Shown here: positions 10,264 to 31,299 of the stretch, in pieces
Layout: each line of letters opens with the position of its first letter
Position numbering within the stretch: position 1 is the first letter of the stretch
Source: a virus
DNA: 31,361 nt
Virus record (IMG/VR): IMGVR_UViG_3300000115_000054
Location: 10,892 to 42,252 of that record
Direction: 5' to 3' (one strand)
Program-made: the position numbers and the translations under genes
Notes under the pieces: model-generated
What the model was told of the DNA's origin: nothing
What the model saw: the letters and a program-made list of their open reading frames with translations, nothing else
Database searches by the model: none

Positions 10264-12434
10264 TGGAAATTAATTCCCCCGACAAATCCGTAAACATTAA
10301 CACCGGCGTCGGTGGTCAAGAATGAAATTATGTCTGTACCAGAAGCAGTGAGTGCTGGTGCAACATTACCGGGCCACTTAATCAATTGTGGTGATGCAAC
10401 CCAAGTTACCGTGTGCGCCCCGCCGTTTGTGATTATAAGAGTGCATGTCCCTGATTTTCCAGAAGGTGGCGAGTTTGCAAAACTTATGGTACAATCGCCC
10501 GTGATGGTTACTGTTTGCACATTTCCATCCTCAAAATCAACCGAGAAACTGGTACTTTTCGAACCAATCGCGTTTACTTTTTCCGAGAAGTCTTTTAGTA
10601 CTGGTCTGACGACATCGGTATCAGCAAAATTAGTTCCGCTGCTGTTTATTGTCTGGTAGTTTGTTCCACCCGCCCTGACAGTGATTGCGGATGAATTGTC
10701 ATCGACTGTTAATATCGTGTCGTTTGATCCGGCTTCGGGATCGCCTATTTTTACAACGTGATTGGCACCAAGTTGTATACCAACTTCGGAATCAGATGGA
10801 TGTTGGAATCCAAACCCCTTTGCCAAAATCATACCAGTCGAAACACCTTGACTTCCATCTGTAACCAGCATCGAGTTCGATGGTCCAGCGACATCAAATC
10901 CAAGTGTGTCTCCGTCAAGTGTCAATCCAGCAGTAACACCACCGAGAGATCCATCTGCACCACTAATCTGTACAAATGCGTCTCCATTGTAAAAGAACAG
11001 ATCACTTGTATCTGACTCCAACCAGAAGTCACCTGTTTCTGCACCAGATGGCGCATCTGACTGTGCGGTATAACCAGCCACTCTTGCTTCTTCGTAAGCA
11101 AAGGCAACATCAACAAAGAATTCAGTTCCCGTGCTAATACCATCTGAATTTGCATCTATTACAAAAGAATCAACATCAAGACTATAGTATGTGCCATTAT
11201 ATGACCCAGTTCCTGCTGTCTTAAATGTCATGTTTCCTGTAGTAAAACCCGCTCCGCGAGGAACTCCCGGTTTGAACGGAAGTATGTCTATGTTTGCCTT
11301 TTTCGTTAGCAGTGAACTGAGGTCTAAGTTTCTGCTTCGTTGGTCGATGTTATCCAAATCACTTTTATGGAAAAGGATTTTTGTTGTGTTTGCAAGTATA
11401 CCGTTGAGTGCAGTAATCGCAAAGTCACCCGGATTTGCTGGAACTCCGTTTCCTGCTGTCCATCCATAAGAAGGATTGTATCCTCCGTAGGTTCTTTTTA
11501 CGCCTGTACCTGAACCTTCTGCCCCAACAATTCCCTTTGTCCCTTGTGCTGTGACGCTTATTTCAATTAAGTCACCGGCATTCGCAATTACGTTCACGAA
11601 GTTTGATTGGTCGCCGGGATTGTAGTCACAGAAATATCTGGTTCCCTCGTCACAGAAAGGAACTTGATTGCAAGCACCAGCAACATTACCACCACCACTG
11701 TAAACTGCGGTCGCCCCGGTGTCCACTCGTTTAAATGTGAAAGTATAAAGTACCGAACCACCAGTATTCGCATTGATTTCATTGAAGAAATTAGTAGCAT
11801 CAGATCCGTCTGAAAAAGAATCATCAACTTCAAGAATAAATCCTGCATTTTCGAATTCTAATATTTTAAATGATCCAGCCGATGGTGCTGATCCCGCTCC
11901 ACCAACAGTGCTTGAAGGTTCTCCTGCTTCATATGTAAAATTACCAACAGTGACGACAGTATCATCTAAGGTAAATGTCATCGAGTCGGTGTTGCTTGCG
12001 TCCCTTGTCAACCCGAGAGGTCCGTCTGACCCAACCAAAATACTAATCTTACCATCGGCAGTAGGTACAACCTGACCACCACCAGCGGTGACGCCAGAGA
12101 TAGCATCACCAGTCGTCAGAACTGTGTCGTCTATTGTAAAGGTCATCGAGTCGGTGTTGCTTGCGTCCCTTGTCAAACCAAGGGGTCCGCTACCATTCAC
12201 CAGAATACTAATCAAACCATCATCAGTAGGTACAACCTGACCACCACCGGCGGTTACACCGGAGATAGCAGGAAATTTTGCTGAGACAATTGCGTGGGGA
12301 TTGGTATCACTTGTTCCGACGAACATGATACCATCATTTGCATTGAACGCGATCTCCCCAGCAGAGAGACCCGATGCACAGGTCGCTCCAGCTGAGGATG
12401 ATCTTCTTACTGTTAATTTATTGTTTCTAGCCAC
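10260..12434 (-). CDS. Long tail fibre-like structural protein (724 aa)
   Basis: The N-terminus (RNNKLTVRRSS...GLSAGEIAFN) is paralogous to that of the next gene upstream (RNNKIIIRKS...GLSAGEFAFS), so both probably use the same attachment domain. Residues about 56-165 contain two nearly identical 55-residue units beginning AISGVTAGGGQVVPT. The middle is rich in Gly, Ser, Thr and Asp, typical of fibres. The C-terminal part, from about residue 610 (FSVDFEDGNVQTVTITGD...), resembles a beta-sandwich found at the ends of phage fibre proteins. The start is a GTG at 12434: an in-frame TAA lies five codons upstream and no ATG fits. The weak ribosome site is GGAATTGTGAT. The stop overlaps the start of the adhesin gene. 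The likely role is receptor contact from the baseplate; precise fibre type is unknown. Confidence 0.82.
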   Translation of the reverse strand: MARNNKLTVRRSSSAGATCASGLSAGEIAFNANDGIMFVGTSDTNPHAIVSAKFPAISGVTAGGGQVVPTDDGLISILVNGSGPLGLTRDASNTDSMTFTIDDTVLTTGDAISGVTAGGGQVVPTADGKISILVGSDGPLGLTRDASNTDSMTFTLDDTVVTVGNFTYEAGEPSSTVGGAGSAPSAGSFKILEFENAGFILEVDDSFSDGSDATNFFNEINANTGGSVLYTFTFKRVDTGATAVYSGGGNVAGACNQVPFCDEGTRYFCDYNPGDQSNFVNVIANAGDLIEISVTAQGTKGIVGAEGSGTGVKRTYGGYNPSYGWTAGNGVPANPGDFAITALNGILANTTKILFHKSDLDNIDQRSRNLDLSSLLTKKANIDILPFKPGVPRGAGFTTGNMTFKTAGTGSYNGTYYSLDVDSFVIDANSDGISTGTEFFVDVAFAYEEARVAGYTAQSDAPSGAETGDFWLESDTSDLFFYNGDAFVQISGADGSLGGVTAGLTLDGDTLGFDVAGPSNSMLVTDGSQGVSTGMILAKGFGFQHPSDSEVGIQLGANHVVKIGDPEAGSNDTILTVDDNSSAITVRAGGTNYQTINSSGTNFADTDVVRPVLKDFSEKVNAIGSKSTSFSVDFEDGNVQTVTITGDCTISFANSPPSGKSGTCTLIITNGGAHTVTWVASPQLIKWPGNVAPALTASGTDIISFLTTDAGVNVYGFVGGINFQ
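11940..12269 (-). repeat. Tandem 165-bp repeat (2 units) inside the fibre gene
   Basis: Two directly adjacent in-frame units, 12105-12269 and 11940-12104, each encode 55 residues starting AISGVTAGGGQVVPT. They share long identical nucleotide stretches, such as the segment around 11979-12011 and 12144-12176. This indicates recent duplication in a fibre shaft. Confidence 0.9.
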
Positions 12435-12458: not shown

Positions 12459-13676
12459 TCAGAATCCGCCGCCGTCAATTACAGATCCATTCAATTTCGC
12501 TCTAAACTCAGCCATGTTACCAGCGTGTTCCGTGGTAACAATTGCATCAGTTCCATTAAAAGAATCACTTTCAAACAAGTAGTATCTACTTGTAGATGCG
12601 TCATAGGCAAGACCTGTGTGAAGTGAACCACCAATTTGCTGGAAGAATCCATAGTCATTGTCGCCATTCGAACCGTCGTTTGCCAGTTCAAGGAATACAT
12701 CTTCAATTTCTAAGTTTGTAGTAGAAATTGTAGTCAAAGTGCCATTAACTGTCAGGTCTCCACCGATAGTGACACCTGCACTTACGTTTAAGTCTGTTAC
12801 AGTAGCAAGTGTGGTATCAATGTTTGGGGCCGTGATACCTTTAGTAAGATTTACTGTGGCAGGTAAACTCCAATTTAATTTAATTCCACCAGCAGATTGG
12901 GTGCTAGTAATTTTGACTTGGTTGGATGTCCCTTCAAAAGTAAGTCCCGAACCAAGAGTCAATCCAGTATTTATTTTTGCTGATGCGACTCCGCCATGAT
13001 TCTGTGAGTTAACCTCAATTGGGATTTGAGGGTTTGCTAGTTTAGCATTCGCAACACCCTCGTTTTTGATACTCACCATACCATTGTCACCAAGACTAAA
13101 GTTATTCACATTATAACTGGCAACACCCTGAATGTCGGCACTGTGTGAGGCAGTCAACCCCGTGAGTGTAATATGAGGAGCAATACCTGCTGCACCGGGC
13201 GCGGTTGTAATACCAATAGACTTTCCTGAGATGAGAGAAATTGCACCAGTGATACCCGTGACACTCGATACCCCACCTTCTGCACCAGCGACTGCGGCTG
13301 TGACATAGGCAGTGGTTGCAATTTCTAAGTTGTTCGTCGCCGCGGCCGGTGATTTCTGTAACTGCATACCAGCAGCCATAGTGATACCAAGAGTACCACC
13401 AGATGGTTCTACACCTGCTTTGCCCGTCTCTGCTATTGCGGTTACTGAAATAGCGTTATCTAGGATATCATATCCGGGAAATACATTAGCAAATGTGGAG
13501 TTCAATCTAGGTCCACCTGCATCTACTACGCCATTTCCACCACTGCTACCAAGGTACAGCGCACCGATTGGATATGAAAAGGCAAATTCACCGGCAGATA
13601 AACCACCTGTCGGAAAAGTGGCATCTCTAGATTTTCTGATTATAATTTTATTGTTTCGTGTTGATGCGTCAGGCAT
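12459..13676 (-). CDS. Tail fibre-like structural protein (405 aa)
   Basis: The protein has the N-terminal motif RNNKIIIRKS...GLSAGEFAFS shared with the 724-aa fibre protein. A Gly/Ala/Ser/Thr-rich shaft follows, and then a segment typical of marine phage fibres (TIGGDLTVNGTLTTISTTNLEIED, read here as two short motifs around residues 300-325). It ends with YGFFQQIGGSLHTGL and a C-terminal IDGGGF tail identical to that of the 188-aa protein upstream. The ATG at 13676 is chosen because GGAGGATTCTAAT provides a good ribosome site; an in-frame TTG at 13697 lies inside the upstream gene and is unlikely. One base separates this start from the preceding stop. I infer a trimeric fibre attached to the baseplate. 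Confidence 0.8.
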   Translation of the reverse strand: MPDASTRNNKIIIRKSRDATFPTGGLSAGEFAFSYPIGALYLGSSGGNGVVDAGGPRLNSTFANVFPGYDILDNAISVTAIAETGKAGVEPSGGTLGITMAAGMQLQKSPAAATNNLEIATTAYVTAAVAGAEGGVSSVTGITGAISLISGKSIGITTAPGAAGIAPHITLTGLTASHSADIQGVASYNVNNFSLGDNGMVSIKNEGVANAKLANPQIPIEVNSQNHGGVASAKINTGLTLGSGLTFEGTSNQVKITSTQSAGGIKLNWSLPATVNLTKGITAPNIDTTLATVTDLNVSAGVTIGGDLTVNGTLTTISTTNLEIEDVFLELANDGSNGDNDYGFFQQIGGSLHTGLAYDASTSRYYLFESDSFNGTDAIVTTEHAGNMAEFRAKLNGSVIDGGGF

Positions 13677-13677
13677 A

Positions 13678-14244
13678 TTAGAATCCTCCTCCGTCAATCA
13701 GTCCTGATACAATGTCATTTGTATTCATGTCGAGACTGACTCCCATCCTGTTTCTAAAGTTTTCTGTGGATGTTCTCATTAAAGTATTTTCCGTCATAAA
13801 AGAGTTTGTAACCAAAGTTTGGTCCGTTTCGCTTAAAGTCGAAGCGGTCTTGCCTCGAATATGTATGGTTCTTGCAGTGTTATTTATAATCACTTCAATT
13901 GTAGAATCTCCACTGAACCCCAAAACTTCTTGTGGTTGCAGTGTGAATCCCGTACCGGAGTCTCCTGTTATTCCAAATTCAGCACTAGCACCGGATACAG
14001 TGAACTCTTGCCAGTTTCCGTTTGCAGTTCCACCCTTTAATTGGTAGTGCTTCTGATCGGCAATCGAGAACACCATCATTCCCTGTTCTCTTCGTAGATC
14101 AGAAATGGCATTTCTGGCTGTTGTGTCTTCTACTGTGCGGAGACTACCTAATCCGAACTTCGGATTGGTTACAGGATATGCGTCCCCCGAATCAGTCGGG
14201 GATACAAAACCACCAAATGGAACTCCTCCTGTAATAGTTGCCAT
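13678..14244 (-). CDS. Small fibre/appendage structural protein (188 aa)
   Basis: The central part, TARNAISDLRREQGMMVF followed by DQKHYQLKGG and NWQEF, is a small beta module that recurs in phage fibre and appendage proteins. It is followed by a Thr/Ser-rich beta-like region and a helical end, MTENTLMRTSTENFRNRM. The C-terminus is IDGGGF. The codons for DGGGF (GACGGAGGAGGATTC) contain the Shine-Dalgarno sequence of the following fibre gene, so this ending serves both genes. The ATG at 14244 shares one base with the stop of the collagen-like gene (TAATG). The function is probably structural; no enzymatic motif is visible. Confidence 0.75.
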   Translation of the reverse strand: MATITGGVPFGGFVSPTDSGDAYPVTNPKFGLGSLRTVEDTTARNAISDLRREQGMMVFSIADQKHYQLKGGTANGNWQEFTVSGASAEFGITGDSGTGFTLQPQEVLGFSGDSTIEVIINNTARTIHIRGKTASTLSETDQTLVTNSFMTENTLMRTSTENFRNRMGVSLDMNTNDIVSGLIDGGGF

Positions 14245-26258: not shown

Positions 26259-28601
26259 ATGGCATTTGATTCCGATGCAAATCTAATTATTAATACTGGT
26301 ACTGGAGACAACATTGGTGCTACAATAGGCACTGATTTTGTAAACGACCAACATCACCAATTATTCAAACTTGGATTCGGTCCTTCTGACGAATTCACCA
26401 GAGTTGGTGATGGACAAGACGTTAACAGTTCGCCTGTTCCGTCACGATTATACCAGAGTGGATCAGGAGAAGCAATAACTTCTACTCCATTTTCTGGCAA
26501 CCACGCCATGGACGTAAACGTCCGTGGTTTGTCTGGTGCAGGAAATGTTTCGGTAAATCTAGTTGATGGTCTTAGTGGGGCAAATTCCCTACAAATTCAA
26601 GGTGCTAGTTCTGGGTATCCAATTTCAATTACAATGGATGCTCCACTTCCGATCGAAGGATCACTTACCGCCACTCTCTCCGGTTCTACGGTAGGTGTCA
26701 CGAACGAAAACACAGCTGCACTCTATGTGCAACCAAAAACTGGTGTAGTTTTCCCAGTCTCTGGTTCACTGTCTGCATCAGTAGACCAAATCGGCGGAGG
26801 AACCCTTTCAGTCGAAGGGTTCACTGGAATGACTCCACTCGTTGTCACTGGTGACGTTATTGCAACACTCGCATCTGGTGGTGACTTCAACATCGCCAGT
26901 ATCGTTGCAGGTGCGACTGTAGGCATCACAGCAAACAACCTAGACATTCGTGGACTGACCACGAACAGGGATTCAGTCAAAGTCAAGGGGTTTGGTGCGG
27001 GTGATTCCGTTAAGACTATTCTTGGGTTTGACAATACAGGTGCATTTACCGCACTGGGTATTTGCACTGCAAACAACTCATTAAATGTCAATATTGCTGG
27101 ACTTAGTTCACTCAGTGTTACAGCAGACATTAGTTCACTTTCTGATCTAACCATAAACAACGCAAAGAGCAACGCAGTCCCGATCCAAGGATCCACTGTT
27201 GATGCTCTGCCTGTGTTTGTTTCTGGTACTGCGGGATCCGCATACCCAATCGGGATTACATGTGAAACTCCAGTTTCGGTTGATGTTGTTACACTTCCAA
27301 ATGTAGCAGGATCGGTAGAAATTACCAACAAGGGACTCACTCTAGACGGTGGAACACTTGATTCGATTGTAAGTGCGGGCGTCACCAACGCTGCTGCTGG
27401 GGCACTTTATGTGCAACCAAAGGCTGGTGCTACATTCGGAGTAACTGGTGATGTTCATGCGACAATCCAAGGTATAGCAACGGGCGTTACCATTGGTATT
27501 GGTGGGAACGGTCTTGGAAGTGGTGTCACTGTAGGAATTACTGTTGGGGTCGGTGGACTTGATGTCAGAGGACTCACCGCACACAACAGCAAGGACTCTG
27601 TGAAGGTATTTGGATCAGGTGTAACTTCTGCATCCGTTGGTCAACCCGTATTCCTCATGGGTGTCTCTGCTGGTGGTAATGCAGAATCACCGGGAGACGG
27701 AACTTTCCAGCATGTAGGATCTTCTGGTGGTCACCTCCTGACCCACGTTGTCAACCCACTGAGTTTGAGTGGTAACTTGACAATCTCCAACACTTCAATT
27801 GGAATATCTTCCGTTGAATCGGGTGCAGTCATTGGTGTTACAAATGATAATGAATCTGCACTATACATCCAACTTAAGAAGGGTGCTACCCTTGCTTCCT
27901 CCGTAACAGGAGACATTGGGGTTGGGATTGGCGGAATCACCGCAGAACACCACTCAATCGGTGTTGCAGACCCAACGAGAAGAACCGTAGCAACAAATGG
28001 TGCAATCGGTACTATGCTGATGGGATTCACTGCTGGAGTCACTGTTGACTACGAAGAACCTTTCTATCAGGGAACAGTAAGAGCATTAGGTGCAACTGCT
28101 GAACTAATCAGATCAGAAATTGAGACCCTTGCTGACAATGTTGCAAGTGAATCAACACTCGGGGATGTTAAGGGTCTTCTTGGTGGAGATGAAACTGATC
28201 CATTCCTAGCATCACTGAAGGACTTCTTCAAATCAGTTCTCGCAGTAGATCCGGGATCGAACCCGAATGCAAACGTAACAACTGTACAGGCAGATATACA
28301 AAACATCGAAATGCCTGCTGTTGGATACGTTAAGACATTCGACTTAACTGGAGCGAATCCTGCACTCGATAGTTTCGTCTGCAAGAGGGGTGTTAGAATC
28401 AAGTGCGAAGACGGAACCTCGACTGGTGGTATGCGAGTCGGGTTTACATCTCCCGCAAGTGGTTCAAATGCTGACACCACAACTACACTCGGATTCCTAC
28501 TCACTGTCGGAGAAGAAATCTTTATTGAAATTGATAACTTGAACAAACTGGAAGTCGCCAGATGTGGTGATGACCTTAACTTCACGGTAATCTGTACATG
28601 A
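26259..28601 (+). CDS. Repeat-containing beta-rich structural protein (780 aa)
   Basis: I do not recognise a named family. The protein is rich in Gly, Val, Thr and Ser, with short beta-strand-like units throughout. One module recurs three times (residues about 144-178, 368-406 and 523-561): GVTNENTAALYVQPKTG, GVTNAAAGALYVQPKAG and GVTNDNESALYIQLKKG. A second recurs twice: LDIRGLTTNRDSVKVKG and LDVRGLTAHNSKDSVKVFG. There is no signal peptide. The C-terminal 150 residues differ, with a helix (ELIRSEIETLADNVASE) and a final domain containing FTVICT. The ATG follows CTGGAGAGAAAAA. The gene overlaps the next one as ATGA. A fibrous virion component (head decoration or whisker) is the most likely role, by composition only. 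Confidence 0.8.
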   Translation: MAFDSDANLIINTGTGDNIGATIGTDFVNDQHHQLFKLGFGPSDEFTRVGDGQDVNSSPVPSRLYQSGSGEAITSTPFSGNHAMDVNVRGLSGAGNVSVNLVDGLSGANSLQIQGASSGYPISITMDAPLPIEGSLTATLSGSTVGVTNENTAALYVQPKTGVVFPVSGSLSASVDQIGGGTLSVEGFTGMTPLVVTGDVIATLASGGDFNIASIVAGATVGITANNLDIRGLTTNRDSVKVKGFGAGDSVKTILGFDNTGAFTALGICTANNSLNVNIAGLSSLSVTADISSLSDLTINNAKSNAVPIQGSTVDALPVFVSGTAGSAYPIGITCETPVSVDVVTLPNVAGSVEITNKGLTLDGGTLDSIVSAGVTNAAAGALYVQPKAGATFGVTGDVHATIQGIATGVTIGIGGNGLGSGVTVGITVGVGGLDVRGLTAHNSKDSVKVFGSGVTSASVGQPVFLMGVSAGGNAESPGDGTFQHVGSSGGHLLTHVVNPLSLSGNLTISNTSIGISSVESGAVIGVTNDNESALYIQLKKGATLASSVTGDIGVGIGGITAEHHSIGVADPTRRTVATNGAIGTMLMGFTAGVTVDYEEPFYQGTVRALGATAELIRSEIETLADNVASESTLGDVKGLLGGDETDPFLASLKDFFKSVLAVDPGSNPNANVTTVQADIQNIEMPAVGYVKTFDLTGANPALDSFVCKRGVRIKCEDGTSTGGMRVGFTSPASGSNADTTTTLGFLLTVGEEIFIEIDNLNKLEVARCGDDLNFTVICT

Positions 28602-29725
28602 GTTTGGCATCTAGATCGTCGAAGAGATCATATAGAAAAAGTTTCTACTTTGCTAGTAGGGCTGATGTTGCTGGTTTCTTTGATGAAACCGATCACATAT
28701 CCATCGACAAAAGTGGAAAACAGTCTCGTACTCCACAGGTCGGGGGAGTGATGAATCTGTTTGTGAATTTTGAGCTGGAAACCCCTAGAAATACAGTGTT
28801 TTCGGGATCTGACAAAGCTTCTGAGTCTTACCTCACACTGACGATTGATAAAGTTGACCGTAATTTTACGGGTGGCAAGGCAACAGTTAAACTTTTAGAT
28901 AAAAACCAAACTGGATTTGATAATTATACTTACGACATGACAAGATTTGAAGTTTCGTCGGTTGAAAAGTCAATTCCAAAGAATGTTTTCGTAGATCAAC
29001 CAATTGCTTTCAATGTCAAACCGTTAATACAAGAAGCGAAGGACCGTGGATTCTCGACTGCAAACTTCGCAATAGAGTTAGAGTCGGACACTGACGGTAA
29101 AATTACCTTCTATGACAATAACCTAGAAGAGTTTGTAGTTTCTGGTAAAGCCGAAGAGAAAACAGAGGTGGTCTTCGGTGGATTTAGTGCAGATTTGCAA
29201 GTAGTGGGATCTTCTTTTAAGGTTTTACCAGAATCAAACGATGCCAATTTGTCAGATGCACTCGATAAGATAAATGATACCGAAGGTGTATCCCTTGACA
29301 TTGCATCATTCACGTTCGAGAAGCAAACTGTGACTCCATCTCTGAACACAAAGAAGGATAATCAGAACGGAACATTTGGTTTTAGTGGTGGATTCGAATC
29401 TACCAACATTAAAGATGGTAATTATCAAGTAAAAGTCAATGAAATACGATTTCAGACGAATGATTCCAGTCTGACAGTCTTCGGTGGACCAAAATTAAAC
29501 TTCAGATCCATAGTCTACATTGATTATGAGGGAGTTAGTGGTCCAAACCAAGGAATTAAATTAAACAGAGTAAAAACCAGTGGTGCATCAGGCGAAACAC
29601 GCATAACTTTCCCAACGGGAGTTTCCGCTGCGTCTGAAACTAGAAATACAACTGGTCAGTTCTTCAAATTGAAGGACGCGACCAAAGTACCAAGGTTAAC
29701 TGTATTCAAAAAAGTAAAGAGATGA
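28598..29725 (+). CDS. Unknown protein translationally coupled to the 780-aa structural gene (375 aa)
   Basis: This protein begins with a basic stretch (SLASRSSKRSYRKSFYFASR). Beta-rich regions follow: FVNFELETPRNTVFSG, LTLTIDKVDRNFTGG and IAFNVKPLIQEAKDRGF, which resembles a virion domain with a hinge helix, and later FSADLQVVGSSFKVLPES. The last 20 residues are basic (KLKDATKVPRLTVFKKVKR). There are no cysteines that I see, no signal peptide and no membrane span. The ATG overlaps the stop of the 780-aa gene (ATGA), so the two are co-translated and probably work together. I assign no function. A hairpin terminator follows the stop by 6 nt. Confidence 0.78.
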   Translation: MSLASRSSKRSYRKSFYFASRADVAGFFDETDHISIDKSGKQSRTPQVGGVMNLFVNFELETPRNTVFSGSDKASESYLTLTIDKVDRNFTGGKATVKLLDKNQTGFDNYTYDMTRFEVSSVEKSIPKNVFVDQPIAFNVKPLIQEAKDRGFSTANFAIELESDTDGKITFYDNNLEEFVVSGKAEEKTEVVFGGFSADLQVVGSSFKVLPESNDANLSDALDKINDTEGVSLDIASFTFEKQTVTPSLNTKKDNQNGTFGFSGGFESTNIKDGNYQVKVNEIRFQTNDSSLTVFGGPKLNFRSIVYIDYEGVSGPNQGIKLNRVKTSGASGETRITFPTGVSAASETRNTTGQFFKLKDATKVPRLTVFKKVKR

Positions 29726-29865: not shown

Positions 29866-29873
29866 TATTTATA
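29866..29873 (-). promoter_or_regulatory. Late-promoter-like TATAAATA box
   Basis: The minus strand reads TATAAATA, identical to the T4 late -10 motif, overlapping the stop codon of the upstream minus-strand frame. The next features on the minus strand are the 23S-like segment and the hairpin at 29756-29732, so it could drive a short RNA of about 130 nt. A chance A/T match cannot be excluded. Confidence 0.4.
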
Positions 29874-30282
29874 AATCAACGAATCTCTCGGGTGGATATT
29901 GGTTGATAATTGGATTCATATCATTCCACCCATACACCACCCACTGATCTCCAATCTGAAATTGATCGGGTTTTAGTAAATTAGACCACCAGATTCCGTT
30001 GCCATACTGCCTTGATCCGTCAGGTGGTTGTACTTGTGCCCTACCCGTAACATTCTGAGAATCCGTTGCAACGGATCCAATCATCTCACCATCTCGATAG
30101 ACCTCAATAACCCACTTTGCGTTGGGATTTTCTGAGACCCATTCATCAACAGACATTGTATCATTATCTAAATTCACTGACTGATACCCGTACGTCGATA
30201 CCGAGATGGCGGCTGGTCCTCCAGAGCCGGAGTCGTCTGCGACTCCGAAGTCTCCTTTGATTAGATCAACCGCCAACCCGCT
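29869..30282 (-). CDS. -1 frame extension of the dockerin protein (about 137 aa)
   Basis: A long open frame continues in the -1 frame from the slippery site of the dockerin gene to a TAA at 29869. It lacks a credible start: no ATG near its 5' end and only TTG codons without a ribosome site. Its sequence, SGLAVDLIKGDFGVADDSG, then SVDEWVSENPNAKWVIEVYRDGEMIGSV, GNGIWWSNLLKPDQF and WVVYGWNDMNPI, looks like a real folded domain with Trp-rich beta strands. I read it as the C-terminal part of a 398-aa frameshift product. It could also be the 3' half of a gene broken by a mutation or sequencing indel. Confidence 0.7.
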   Translation of the reverse strand, partial: SGLAVDLIKGDFGVADDSGSGGPAAISVSTYGYQSVNLDNDTMSVDEWVSENPNAKWVIEVYRDGEMIGSVATDSQNVTGRAQVQPPDGSRQYGNGIWWSNLLKPDQFQIGDQWVVYGWNDMNPIINQYPPERFVDL

Positions 30283-31064
30283 TTTGGGACAATCCAATGT
30301 CCTCCCCTATTCGCATCACTGGGTTGTTCATTGAAAGTAAGTTTGAAGATATGATCTGCCTCGTTGAATGATCCATTGACCACTTCTACTGGAGGATCCA
30401 CTGGATCCGGATCGGGACCAGCGTTTGCCTCATCAAGAGAGTCATCCGAAGATTCAGACCATTGGTTTAGCAGGATTTCTAAATCTGCGCCATCGACCAA
30501 ACCACTCTGATCGAGATCATACAGAGGATTATTAGTTCCAAATGCTCCCATAACCAGCATCTGATCTTGCATATCAACCCACATATCGCTGTTAACATCT
30601 GCAAGAAGTCCTTCCGATCTGGTCATGATTTCCCAGAAAATTTGAGTGGTTAAACTCTGACCCGGATCGAGAACTTGCTCGTATACCGTAATGAGTCTTC
30701 TGGTTGATGGTTCCCAGCAAACCTCTTCAAATCCGGGAGGAATGATGGGCATGATACCTTCACTCAAAAGAATTGACTGACGGTATCGTAGTCTTCTCCT
30801 CTGTTCTGAGTTGTTGGTCCATTCGATCTCCCCATCCATAGGAAATGCACCAATCGTATCTCGCATGAATGTATCATATGATGCGATAATAGTTCTGGTA
30901 TCTGTCTGAATTTCAGAGACCGTAATGAGTTTATCCGTATCGGGTACGGTCACACTCGTCATCGGCATAAGCCGAGGAGGACAGTCTAAATCATTTACTT
31001 GTCCGTGCGCTGCTACCGACAGTGATACGGCCAGTGTCGCGCTTTGATACATTTGTAATTTCAT
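30261..31064 (-). CDS. Secreted dockerin-domain protein, 0-frame product (267 aa)
   Basis: The N-terminus is a signal peptide: MKLQMYQS, a hydrophobic ATLAVSLSVAA and a likely cleavage after AHG. A beta-like region without a recognised fold follows (about 25-150; two cysteines). Residues about 153-205 form a type I dockerin-like pair of EF-hand repeats: LLADVNSDMWVDMQDQMLVM and LYDLDQSGLVDGADLEILL, ending NQW. A Pro/Asp-rich linker (DPDPVDPPVE) leads to a partial domain that stops after HWIVPKAGWRLI. Translation begins at the ATG at 31064 with AAAGGAG upstream (a TTG one codon earlier is also in frame). It overlaps the holin-like gene by 74 nt. In planctomycetes such dockerins sit on secreted proteins, so export or cell-surface action is expected; the function is unknown. 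Confidence 0.8.
   Translation of the reverse strand: MKLQMYQSATLAVSLSVAAHGQVNDLDCPPRLMPMTSVTVPDTDKLITVSEIQTDTRTIIASYDTFMRDTIGAFPMDGEIEWTNNSEQRRRLRYRQSILLSEGIMPIIPPGFEEVCWEPSTRRLITVYEQVLDPGQSLTTQIFWEIMTRSEGLLADVNSDMWVDMQDQMLVMGAFGTNNPLYDLDQSGLVDGADLEILLNQWSESSDDSLDEANAGPDPDPVDPPVEVVNGSFNEADHIFKLTFNEQPSDANRGGHWIVPKAGWRLI
30282..30307 (-). promoter_or_regulatory. Candidate -1 programmed frameshift signal
   Basis: On the minus strand the heptamer C CCA AAA (30288-30282) is in the correct X XXY YYZ phase of the dockerin frame. A Shine-Dalgarno-like GGGGAGG (30307-30301) lies 12 nt upstream, the spacing that stimulates -1 shifting in bacterial dnaX. The 0 frame stops six codons later. An 8-bp hairpin (30247-30228) begins about 34 nt downstream, farther than usual. 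Confidence 0.6.
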
Positions 31065-31299
31065 CAATTACTTCTCCTTTGTTCGTCGTTACTTTCACCC
31101 ATGCTCTGCTCCAAATATAACTGCACATGACGGCCCCCGCCACAGCCCACATTGCAATTTCTCCGCCCTCTGTAATAGGCCAGTTTTTAAAGAAACCAAA
31201 TTGTTCTGCGAGGGGCAACCCTCCAATGCCAATTGCTGCCCAAAATTCCGTTGACTTAACACCGGGTTTCGGTTCCGTTGTTGTAGTTGTTGTAGCCAT
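30991..31299 (-). CDS. Holin-like small membrane protein (102 aa)
   Basis: After a Thr-rich start (MATTTTTTEPKPGVK), the protein has a moderately hydrophobic stretch, FWAAIGIGGLPLAEQFGFF, and a clear membrane segment, EIAMWAVAGAVMCSYIWS, followed by a charged, basic C-terminus. Size, one or two spans and a Lys/Arg-rich tail are holin-like, and small membrane proteins of this type are often lysis proteins in phages. No lysozyme gene is adjacent in this window. The ribosome site is AAGGAG with good spacing. A TATAAATA late-promoter-like box lies about 40 nt upstream. The last 74 nt overlap the start and signal peptide of the dockerin gene. A non-lytic membrane role is possible. Confidence 0.6.
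   Translation of the reverse strand: MATTTTTTEPKPGVKSTEFWAAIGIGGLPLAEQFGFFKNWPITEGGEIAMWAVAGAVMCSYIWSRAWVKVTTNKGEVIDEITNVSKRDTGRITVGSSARTSK

Follow-up and report, generated by a model that had tools for sequence, protein, structure and literature searches.

A dockerin-tagged, putatively exported protein of T4-like phages is probably extended by programmed -1 frameshifting

As described in PMC5009743, some phage genes contain, close to their end, a -1 (or +1) shift through which part of the product gains a C-terminal domain. Dockerins have also appeared in phage reports: gene 40 of Vibrio phage VvAW1 was reported to resemble dockerin type I proteins by BLAST (PMC3558961), and a dockerin-like carbohydrate-binding module is recorded in an E. 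coli phage (PMC5967307). On the bacterial side, a cohesin-dockerin ‘planctosome’ has been proposed, as a hypothesis, for freshwater planctomycetes (PMC6461901), and a chronic phage of a planctomycete has been described (PMC10945688). The gene considered here, dockB, lies in a 31,361-nucleotide stretch of virus DNA, the whole of which was analysed and is called the window; it covers positions 10892-42252 of a virus record 42,252 bp long, and all window features given below lie on its minus strand unless stated otherwise.

The phage of the window is T4-like. In its record, PHROGs identified gp32 (phrog_224, 390 bits), the tail tube cap, the baseplate hub with tail lysozyme, and wedge subunits, the families matched by the T4-type gp32 and baseplate genes being phrog_224, 230, 430, 232, 219 and 150. 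The closest cultured gp32 proteins were those of cyanophages, at no more than 57% identity among the matches listed, and the closest cultured tail tube caps, those of Pelagibacter phages, were 32-34% identical; the lineage is therefore far from the cultured ones. No tRNA genes were found in the window record. Two adjacent plus-strand genes (26259-28601 and 28598-29725) encode proteins of 780 and 375 amino acids without Pfam or PHROG match; the 375-residue protein had no relative in the phage collection and, among the viral contigs, was found only in an identical contig. When viral contigs were scanned by protein and family alignment, homologues of the dockerin gene were detected at 15 viral loci, and no match to dockB was obtained among 50,697 phage records at E <=1. 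When the entire viral collection was searched for the pattern of the recoding site described below, 11 contigs were returned, 10 of which were already known; the new one (L154, record G335) carries the same gene pair, i.e., dockB and the -1 frame domain. The frameshift set thus defined consists of 12 records (that of the window, G001-G010, and G335 from the pattern scan), which amount to nine distinct sequences over the site, G001 being near-identical to the window (99.97% over 7,098 bp).

The frame-0 open reading frame (ORF) of dockB (30261..31067) has 268 codons counted from a TTG, or 267 amino acids from the ATG at 31064, and encodes a signal peptide, a beta-sandwich domain, a dockerin and an acidic tail. 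The putative signal peptide (30996..31064) is of the Sec type as judged by eye, with a charged start, a hydrophobic core and small residues, and the same arrangement was seen by eye in the homologues with complete starts. The N-terminal domain (30615..30983) belongs to no known family and is predicted to be a beta-sandwich, with pLDDT mostly 80-97 over residues 31-150; a fold search with it returned generic beta-sandwich matches only (Z up to 5.6). Cys29 and Cys117 are conserved wherever the homologue is complete in that part. The predicted structure had a mean pLDDT of 69.8, with a confident beta-sandwich at residues 37-151 and the dockerin near 157-205.

The initial annotation had read a paired EF-hand motif at 30450-30610 as a dockerin, and the domain indeed proved to be a real one. 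A dockerin type I domain with two calcium-type loops spans 30450..30602, as indicated by Pfam on homologues, the predicted fold and NCBIfam. The EF-hand-like 12-residue loops occupy residues 157-168 (DVNSDMWVDMQD) and 184-195 (DLDQSGLVDGAD), numbered from the TTG and 27 residues apart, and the acidic or polar ligand positions (D/N/S) are kept in both loops and in the homologues. The Pfam search that had been suggested as a check gave a divided answer: the window copy itself scored 16.2 bits (E 0.012) with Dockerin_1 (PF00404), under the cut-off of 22.9, whereas 14 of the 15 virus records with a homologue passed, the sole failure being G001, the near-identical record. Scanned singly, six of seven homologues passed this cut-off. 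Since 14 of 15 homologue records pass, a chance likeness to dockerins is excluded. The model also superimposed on solved dockerins, giving Z 9.2 with 2y3n_B (59 residues, 3.2 A), and 1.5 and 1.7 A with 5m0y_B and 5k39_B over 54-55 residues. The nearest NCBIfam model was that of the GC-type dockerin (NF041540), with which the window copy scored 17.6 bits, under the 29-bit cut-off, and the three matching homologues 21.2-23.8. A similar loop had been noted in the giant ORF of the window as well; one EF-like loop is present there (DLDGDGVVDGDE, residue 1632 of 2687), but it is single, no Pfam match was found in the 2625-aa part scanned, and the ORF was rejected as a dockerin protein.

The initial annotation regarded the 267-residue ORF as the complete protein, but it is probably not, as a conserved putative frameshift signal lies near its end. 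A second ORF, in the -1 frame (29869-30297), shares sequence with the last part of the dockerin ORF, and 139 of its codons (29869..30288) would be joined to dockB as a C-terminal domain by the proposed frameshift, giving a protein of about 398 aa. This domain is conserved, at 132-144 residues across relatives; identity to five relatives was about 45-70% in frame 0 and 66-71% in the -1 frame. Modelled alone, it gave a poor prediction (pLDDT 49.8), and no Ig-like character was found by family scan or model. It was detected in none of 199 planctomycete genomes, in a search run without a positive control. The short homologues, at five loci (G011-G015), end right after the dockerin and do not have the C-terminal domain. 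Altogether 26 BLAST pieces crossed the junction in homologues; they were considered as possible single-frame fusion homologues and were taken as over-extension, because in 11 of 11 records a stop codon in the -1 frame lies 18-66 nt upstream of the heptamer described next. The gene probably extends past its frame-0 ORF by a programmed -1 frameshift.

The proposed slip site is the heptamer C_CCA_AAA (30282..30288), which stands in frame-0 phase and is identical in all nine distinct sequences; as in programmed -1 frameshifting, an in-phase X_XXY_YYZ heptamer is thus found in the overlap of two conserved frames. A near relative of it, C_CCA_AAG, is reported to be highly shift-prone in E. coli (PMC5009743). 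C_CCA_AAA is rare elsewhere: among 98,011 codon positions in eight of the frameshift records, five in-phase copies lie outside dockB. The frame-0 stop codon (30261..30263) lies six codons past the heptamer, and this position is constant in 9/9 sequences, though TAA, TGA and TAG are all used. Upstream of the slip site there is a Shine-Dalgarno-like GGGGAGG (30301..30307), and an anti-Shine-Dalgarno-like match of 4-6 nt, ending 11-15 nt before the heptamer, was found in each of the nine sequences; upstream stimulators of this kind are known from E. coli dnaX, and the dockB element fits. Downstream, RNAalifold, pairing and energy ranks point to a stimulatory stem (30207..30275), the arms of which (30267-30275 and 30207-30215) form 9 bp, with a hairpin (30229-30247) sitting inside this outer stem. 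The spacer from heptamer to stem is 6 nt, in keeping with the 5-9 nt that are usual for -1 frameshifting. The slippery codons, CCA and AAA, would be decoded by tRNA-Pro(UGG) and tRNA-Lys(UUU), and both of these are encoded in the tRNA clusters of G003 and G005 (L111:4827-9333 and L123:2293-6604).

Conservation of the stem was examined at several levels. In the outer stem, all 81 of 81 cells are paired, and the three changes, all one-sided, keep the pairing; the inner hairpin has two pairs with changes on both sides. Among 500 shuffles, the covariation score was reached six times and the count of pairs with two-sided changes 113 times, and because of the latter the covariation is judged modest. 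When the 90 nt after the heptamer were ranked by energy among the 399-415 windows of each gene, they came first in five of the nine genes, and 4th, 4th, 6th and 13th in the rest. Four-fold degenerate sites with the first two bases invariant numbered 52, of which seven are also invariant at the third base: six of the 12 sites that lie between codons -1 and +25 relative to the slip, versus one of 40 elsewhere (Fisher p 0.00028). Two of these six lie in the two-frame overlap, where frame 0 could hold them, and two in the 3' arm outside the overlap.

The start of dockB is overlapped by a gene (30991..31299) for a 102-aa protein with two hydrophobic stretches, for which a lysis role is a guess. A conserved protein of this kind (80-114 aa, two hydrophobic stretches) overlaps dockB in 11 of the 12 frameshift records, and the short homologues are followed, at 5/5 loci, by a 43-53-aa protein with one hydrophobic stretch, similar among them; a small hydrophobic protein gene adjoins the dockerin gene everywhere except in G335. 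The 80-114-aa neighbours fell below the hydropathy threshold for a clear transmembrane segment; beside one of the short homologues, that of G015, a 46-aa protein exceeds it. The copies of the small protein that were scanned had no Pfam, PHROG or NCBIfam match, and in particular none to a holin family; the pairing with the dockerin gene would nonetheless suit a role in the envelope or in lysis. Three carriers of short homologues (G013, G014 and G011) share one TerL family cluster, and PHROGs identify the portals of both G014 and G011, and in G014 also TerL; they are therefore tailed phages of another kind, and the dockerin gene appears to have moved between unrelated phages. The portal protein of G014 is encoded by an ORF of 1631 aa (L138:8907-13802), at the end of which there is a match to an Alt-like ADP-ribosyltransferase. 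The relative G335 (L181:4789-6611, 11738-12163, 13014-14120) encodes a glutamine synthetase, a protein that looks ThyX-like by eye, a destabilase-type lysozyme whose start is signal-like, and an adenosine deaminase.

In several records another dockerin protein, dockA, is encoded upstream of dockB. Copies of dockA were noted at G003:1679-2785, G006:16238-17332, G007:2080-3174, G010:51425-52489 and G016:20645-21718, with no evident signal peptide; G008 holds a 1059-aa version. Its motifs, HA..C.HY and GDSG[TS]P, are trypsin-like, and our guess is that dockA may be a trypsin-type protease; no protease was found when its profile was compared with the PDB, and the Pfam matches were to EF-hand and dockerin only. 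On a contig that extends the window rightward, a trypsin-like lipoprotein (L001:414-1178, minus strand; Pfam Trypsin, 52.8 bits) is encoded upstream of dockB. In G016, a 797-aa phage protein with a C-terminal dockerin (G016:18141-20534) looks structural by eye.

A planctomycete-like host had been suggested by the initial annotation from the style of the motif, and this suggestion was strengthened by both the dockerin and the tRNA comparisons. When bacterial and archaeal genomes were scanned with the dockerin, the sole confirmed match among the matches listed was in a Phycisphaerales metagenome-assembled genome (MAG), and the nearest cellular dockerin matches, among those listed, were likewise planctomycete. 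The family profile matched eight of 294 Planctomycetota genomes, at up to 62 bits, compared with a best of 27 bits among solved dockerins, a much smaller and clostridial-leaning set; the listed matches in these eight genomes cover essentially the dockerin alone, and the presence of the N-terminal domain in planctomycetes was rejected on this ground. NF041540 matched 12 of 199 planctomycete genomes versus 0 of 14 controls. A 20-kb stretch of G003 was then compared with 377 genomes of the class of the Phycisphaerales MAG, in which its tRNA-Asn was matched at 99% in three genomes and at 96% in two, the other listed matches, of any tRNA, being at or below 93%. By direct comparison, this tRNA-Asn was 100% identical to that of G670 over 73 nt and 98.6% identical to those of G563 and G545, and the tRNA-Asn of a second dockB phage, G010, was 98.6% identical to that of G670 over 73 nt. 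The matching tRNA-Asn lies near prfA in 5/5 contigs and is therefore chromosomal. Elsewhere, the best full-length identity among the matches listed was 86.5% for phages and 86.5% for plasmids, and E. coli gave 83.1% over 64 nt; the tRNA-Asn of other dockerin-phage records was only about 79-89% identical to the planctomycete genomes just named. It is to be noted that these comparisons cover planctomycete genomes and collections of phages, plasmids and E. coli, and that the match belongs to relatives of the window, which has no tRNA itself. The five best-matching genomes hold 94, 102, 88, 26 and 28 dockerin-profile matches; among seven further genomes chosen from the tRNA search, the counts were 1-7 in five, and 41 and 147 in the other two. 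Together, the dockerin and tRNA matches suggest as host a dockerin-rich planctomycete belonging to Phycisphaerae or close to them.

Three other candidate indications of the host were set aside. The adenosine deaminase of G335 was uninformative (56% for planctomycetes versus 58% for a record labelled Acinetobacter phage), and the terminase of G014, at 41% for a planctomycete genome versus 37% for a Halorubrum phage, was not decisive. A gp32-like DNA match in a planctomycete bin (G227) was dropped, the 9-kb contig being closest to Pelagibacter phage HTVC008M; this contig (contig 27 of the bin, L204) is likely a binning contaminant, and its presence in a planctomycete bin warns against reading hosts from bins. 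Besides G227, another 12 genomes matched the window DNA, by stretches of 24-44 bp only.

We put at about 70% the probability that dockB is an exported, dockerin-tagged phage protein made in two lengths by frameshifting. The domain order, the conserved frame break, the heptamer, the stop, the stem and the dockerin can all be read from the sequence alone, and the remaining steps would be as follows. Ribosomes that stay in frame 0 would make the signal peptide, the beta-sandwich domain, the dockerin and a short acidic tail, while a fraction would slip back one base at C_CCA_AAA, helped by the upstream Shine-Dalgarno-like element and the downstream stem, and would add the C-terminal domain; that the slip occurs, and at what frequency, is a proposal drawn from these sequence features. 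The signal peptide, recognised by eye, suggests export via Sec, and the dockerin would then attach, through calcium, to a cohesin on the surface of the host. Our best guess of the purpose is that, at a late stage of infection, the phage uses the host surface-docking system to bring its protein to the envelope, on or within it, where the protein could remodel the envelope, contribute to lysis or keep out other phages; frameshifting would set the ratio of short to long docked form.

It is conceivable that two separate proteins are made instead, the C-terminal domain being initiated by re-initiation tied to the frame-0 stop and remaining in the cytosol. An ATG, GTG or TTG is indeed found three codons after the heptamer, four codons before the frame-0 stop, in 9/9 sequences. 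However, this codon is partly forced by a frame-0 Trp codon, no anti-Shine-Dalgarno match stands in front of it in any of the nine, and separate initiation leaves the invariant heptamer, the stem and the spacing of the Shine-Dalgarno-like element unexplained. We consider it quite improbable; frameshifting, although unproven, stands well ahead of re-initiation. The records are metagenome contigs, which would invite the view that the break arose from faulty sequencing or assembly, or marks a decayed gene, but the same break occurs in 12 records (nine distinct sequences), in which the protein sequence of each frame is conserved; sequencing error was rejected on this conservation, and the explanation as a whole is barely credible.

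Other alternatives accept the frameshift and differ in where the protein or the phage belongs. The dockB protein might reside in the virion or inside the cell, its dockerin serving in assembly or as a calcium linker with no host cohesin involved, a view that gains from the lack of an evident signal peptide in dockA, from the structural look of the 797-aa dockerin protein of G016, and from a cohesin search of 18 phage records and one MAG that found none. It is at odds with the signal peptides of Sec type seen in dockB and with its conserved cysteines; dockB, moreover, matched no phage structural family, and this view appears unlikely to us. Somewhat unlikely, too, is a host outside the planctomycetes, the dockerin having been acquired laterally and the tRNA being widely shared in unsampled phyla. 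The gp32 nearest to cyanophages and the tail tube cap nearest to Pelagibacter phages would agree with another host, as would the distance of most dockerin-phage tRNA-Asn from the planctomycete one, and the sample holds no genomes of other phyla. On the other side, the tRNA-Asn of two phages is 98.6-100% identical to one and the same chromosomal tRNA, versus no more than 86.5% at full length for phages, plasmids and E. coli, and psbA was absent from 17/17 dockerin-phage records, all possibly fragments, and present in one of three others in the same search. Building on export and frameshifting of dockB, a wider scenario is offered tentatively as possible: lytic Phycisphaerae phages may have taken over the dockerin-cohesin system of their hosts, with frameshifting setting the forms, and unrelated tailed phages may share the module as it fits the envelope.

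To our knowledge, the role of planctomycete dockerins is unsettled, and some planctomycete genomes contain around a hundred or more dockerin matches. If the reading of dockB as an exported protein of two lengths is true, a phage protein that borrows the dockerin tag would be a direct handle on the role of the tag and the destination of proteins, candidate hosts would be named for a group of marine viruses, and a secreted protein would join the phage genes that use programmed frameshifting. Ordinary annotation splits dockB into two unrelated ORFs. The initial annotation had held cultured T4-like phages of planctomycetes to be scarce, and none of dockerin-rich planctomycetes was found in the literature searched. 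Among open-access titles and abstract beginnings, no paper was found that joins a secreted dockerin, programmed frameshifting, T4-like phages and Phycisphaerae. Dockerins and frameshift-appended phage domains are known already; a secreted dockerin protein under frameshift control in T4-like phages linked to Phycisphaerae, as dockB would be, was not found in that literature.

Set beside the known dockerin families (PF00404 and NF041540), dockB has the same two tandem calcium-type loops and dockerin fold near the C-terminus of a presumably secreted protein; it differs in being phage-encoded, in the window copy lying under both cut-offs, in the extra domain of its long form, and in that no cohesin partner was found in the 18 phages and one MAG. 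Vibrio phage VvAW1 is another kind of phage than the carriers of dockB. The planctosome proposal (PMC6461901) likewise features secreted dockerin proteins, peptidases among them, but as presented there it concerns host proteins only, with no phage part, and dockB has no known enzyme domain. Phage T3, phage A2 and the Listeria phages, all with C-terminal Ig-like domains, and the lambda G-GT pair resemble dockB in that the shift occurs near the gene end and gives a fraction of the product a C-terminal domain (PMC5009743). These are, however, virion or tail-assembly proteins, whereas dockB, the C-terminal domain of which showed no Ig-like character by scan or model, combines a putative signal peptide, a dockerin, a Shine-Dalgarno-like element and a long stem.
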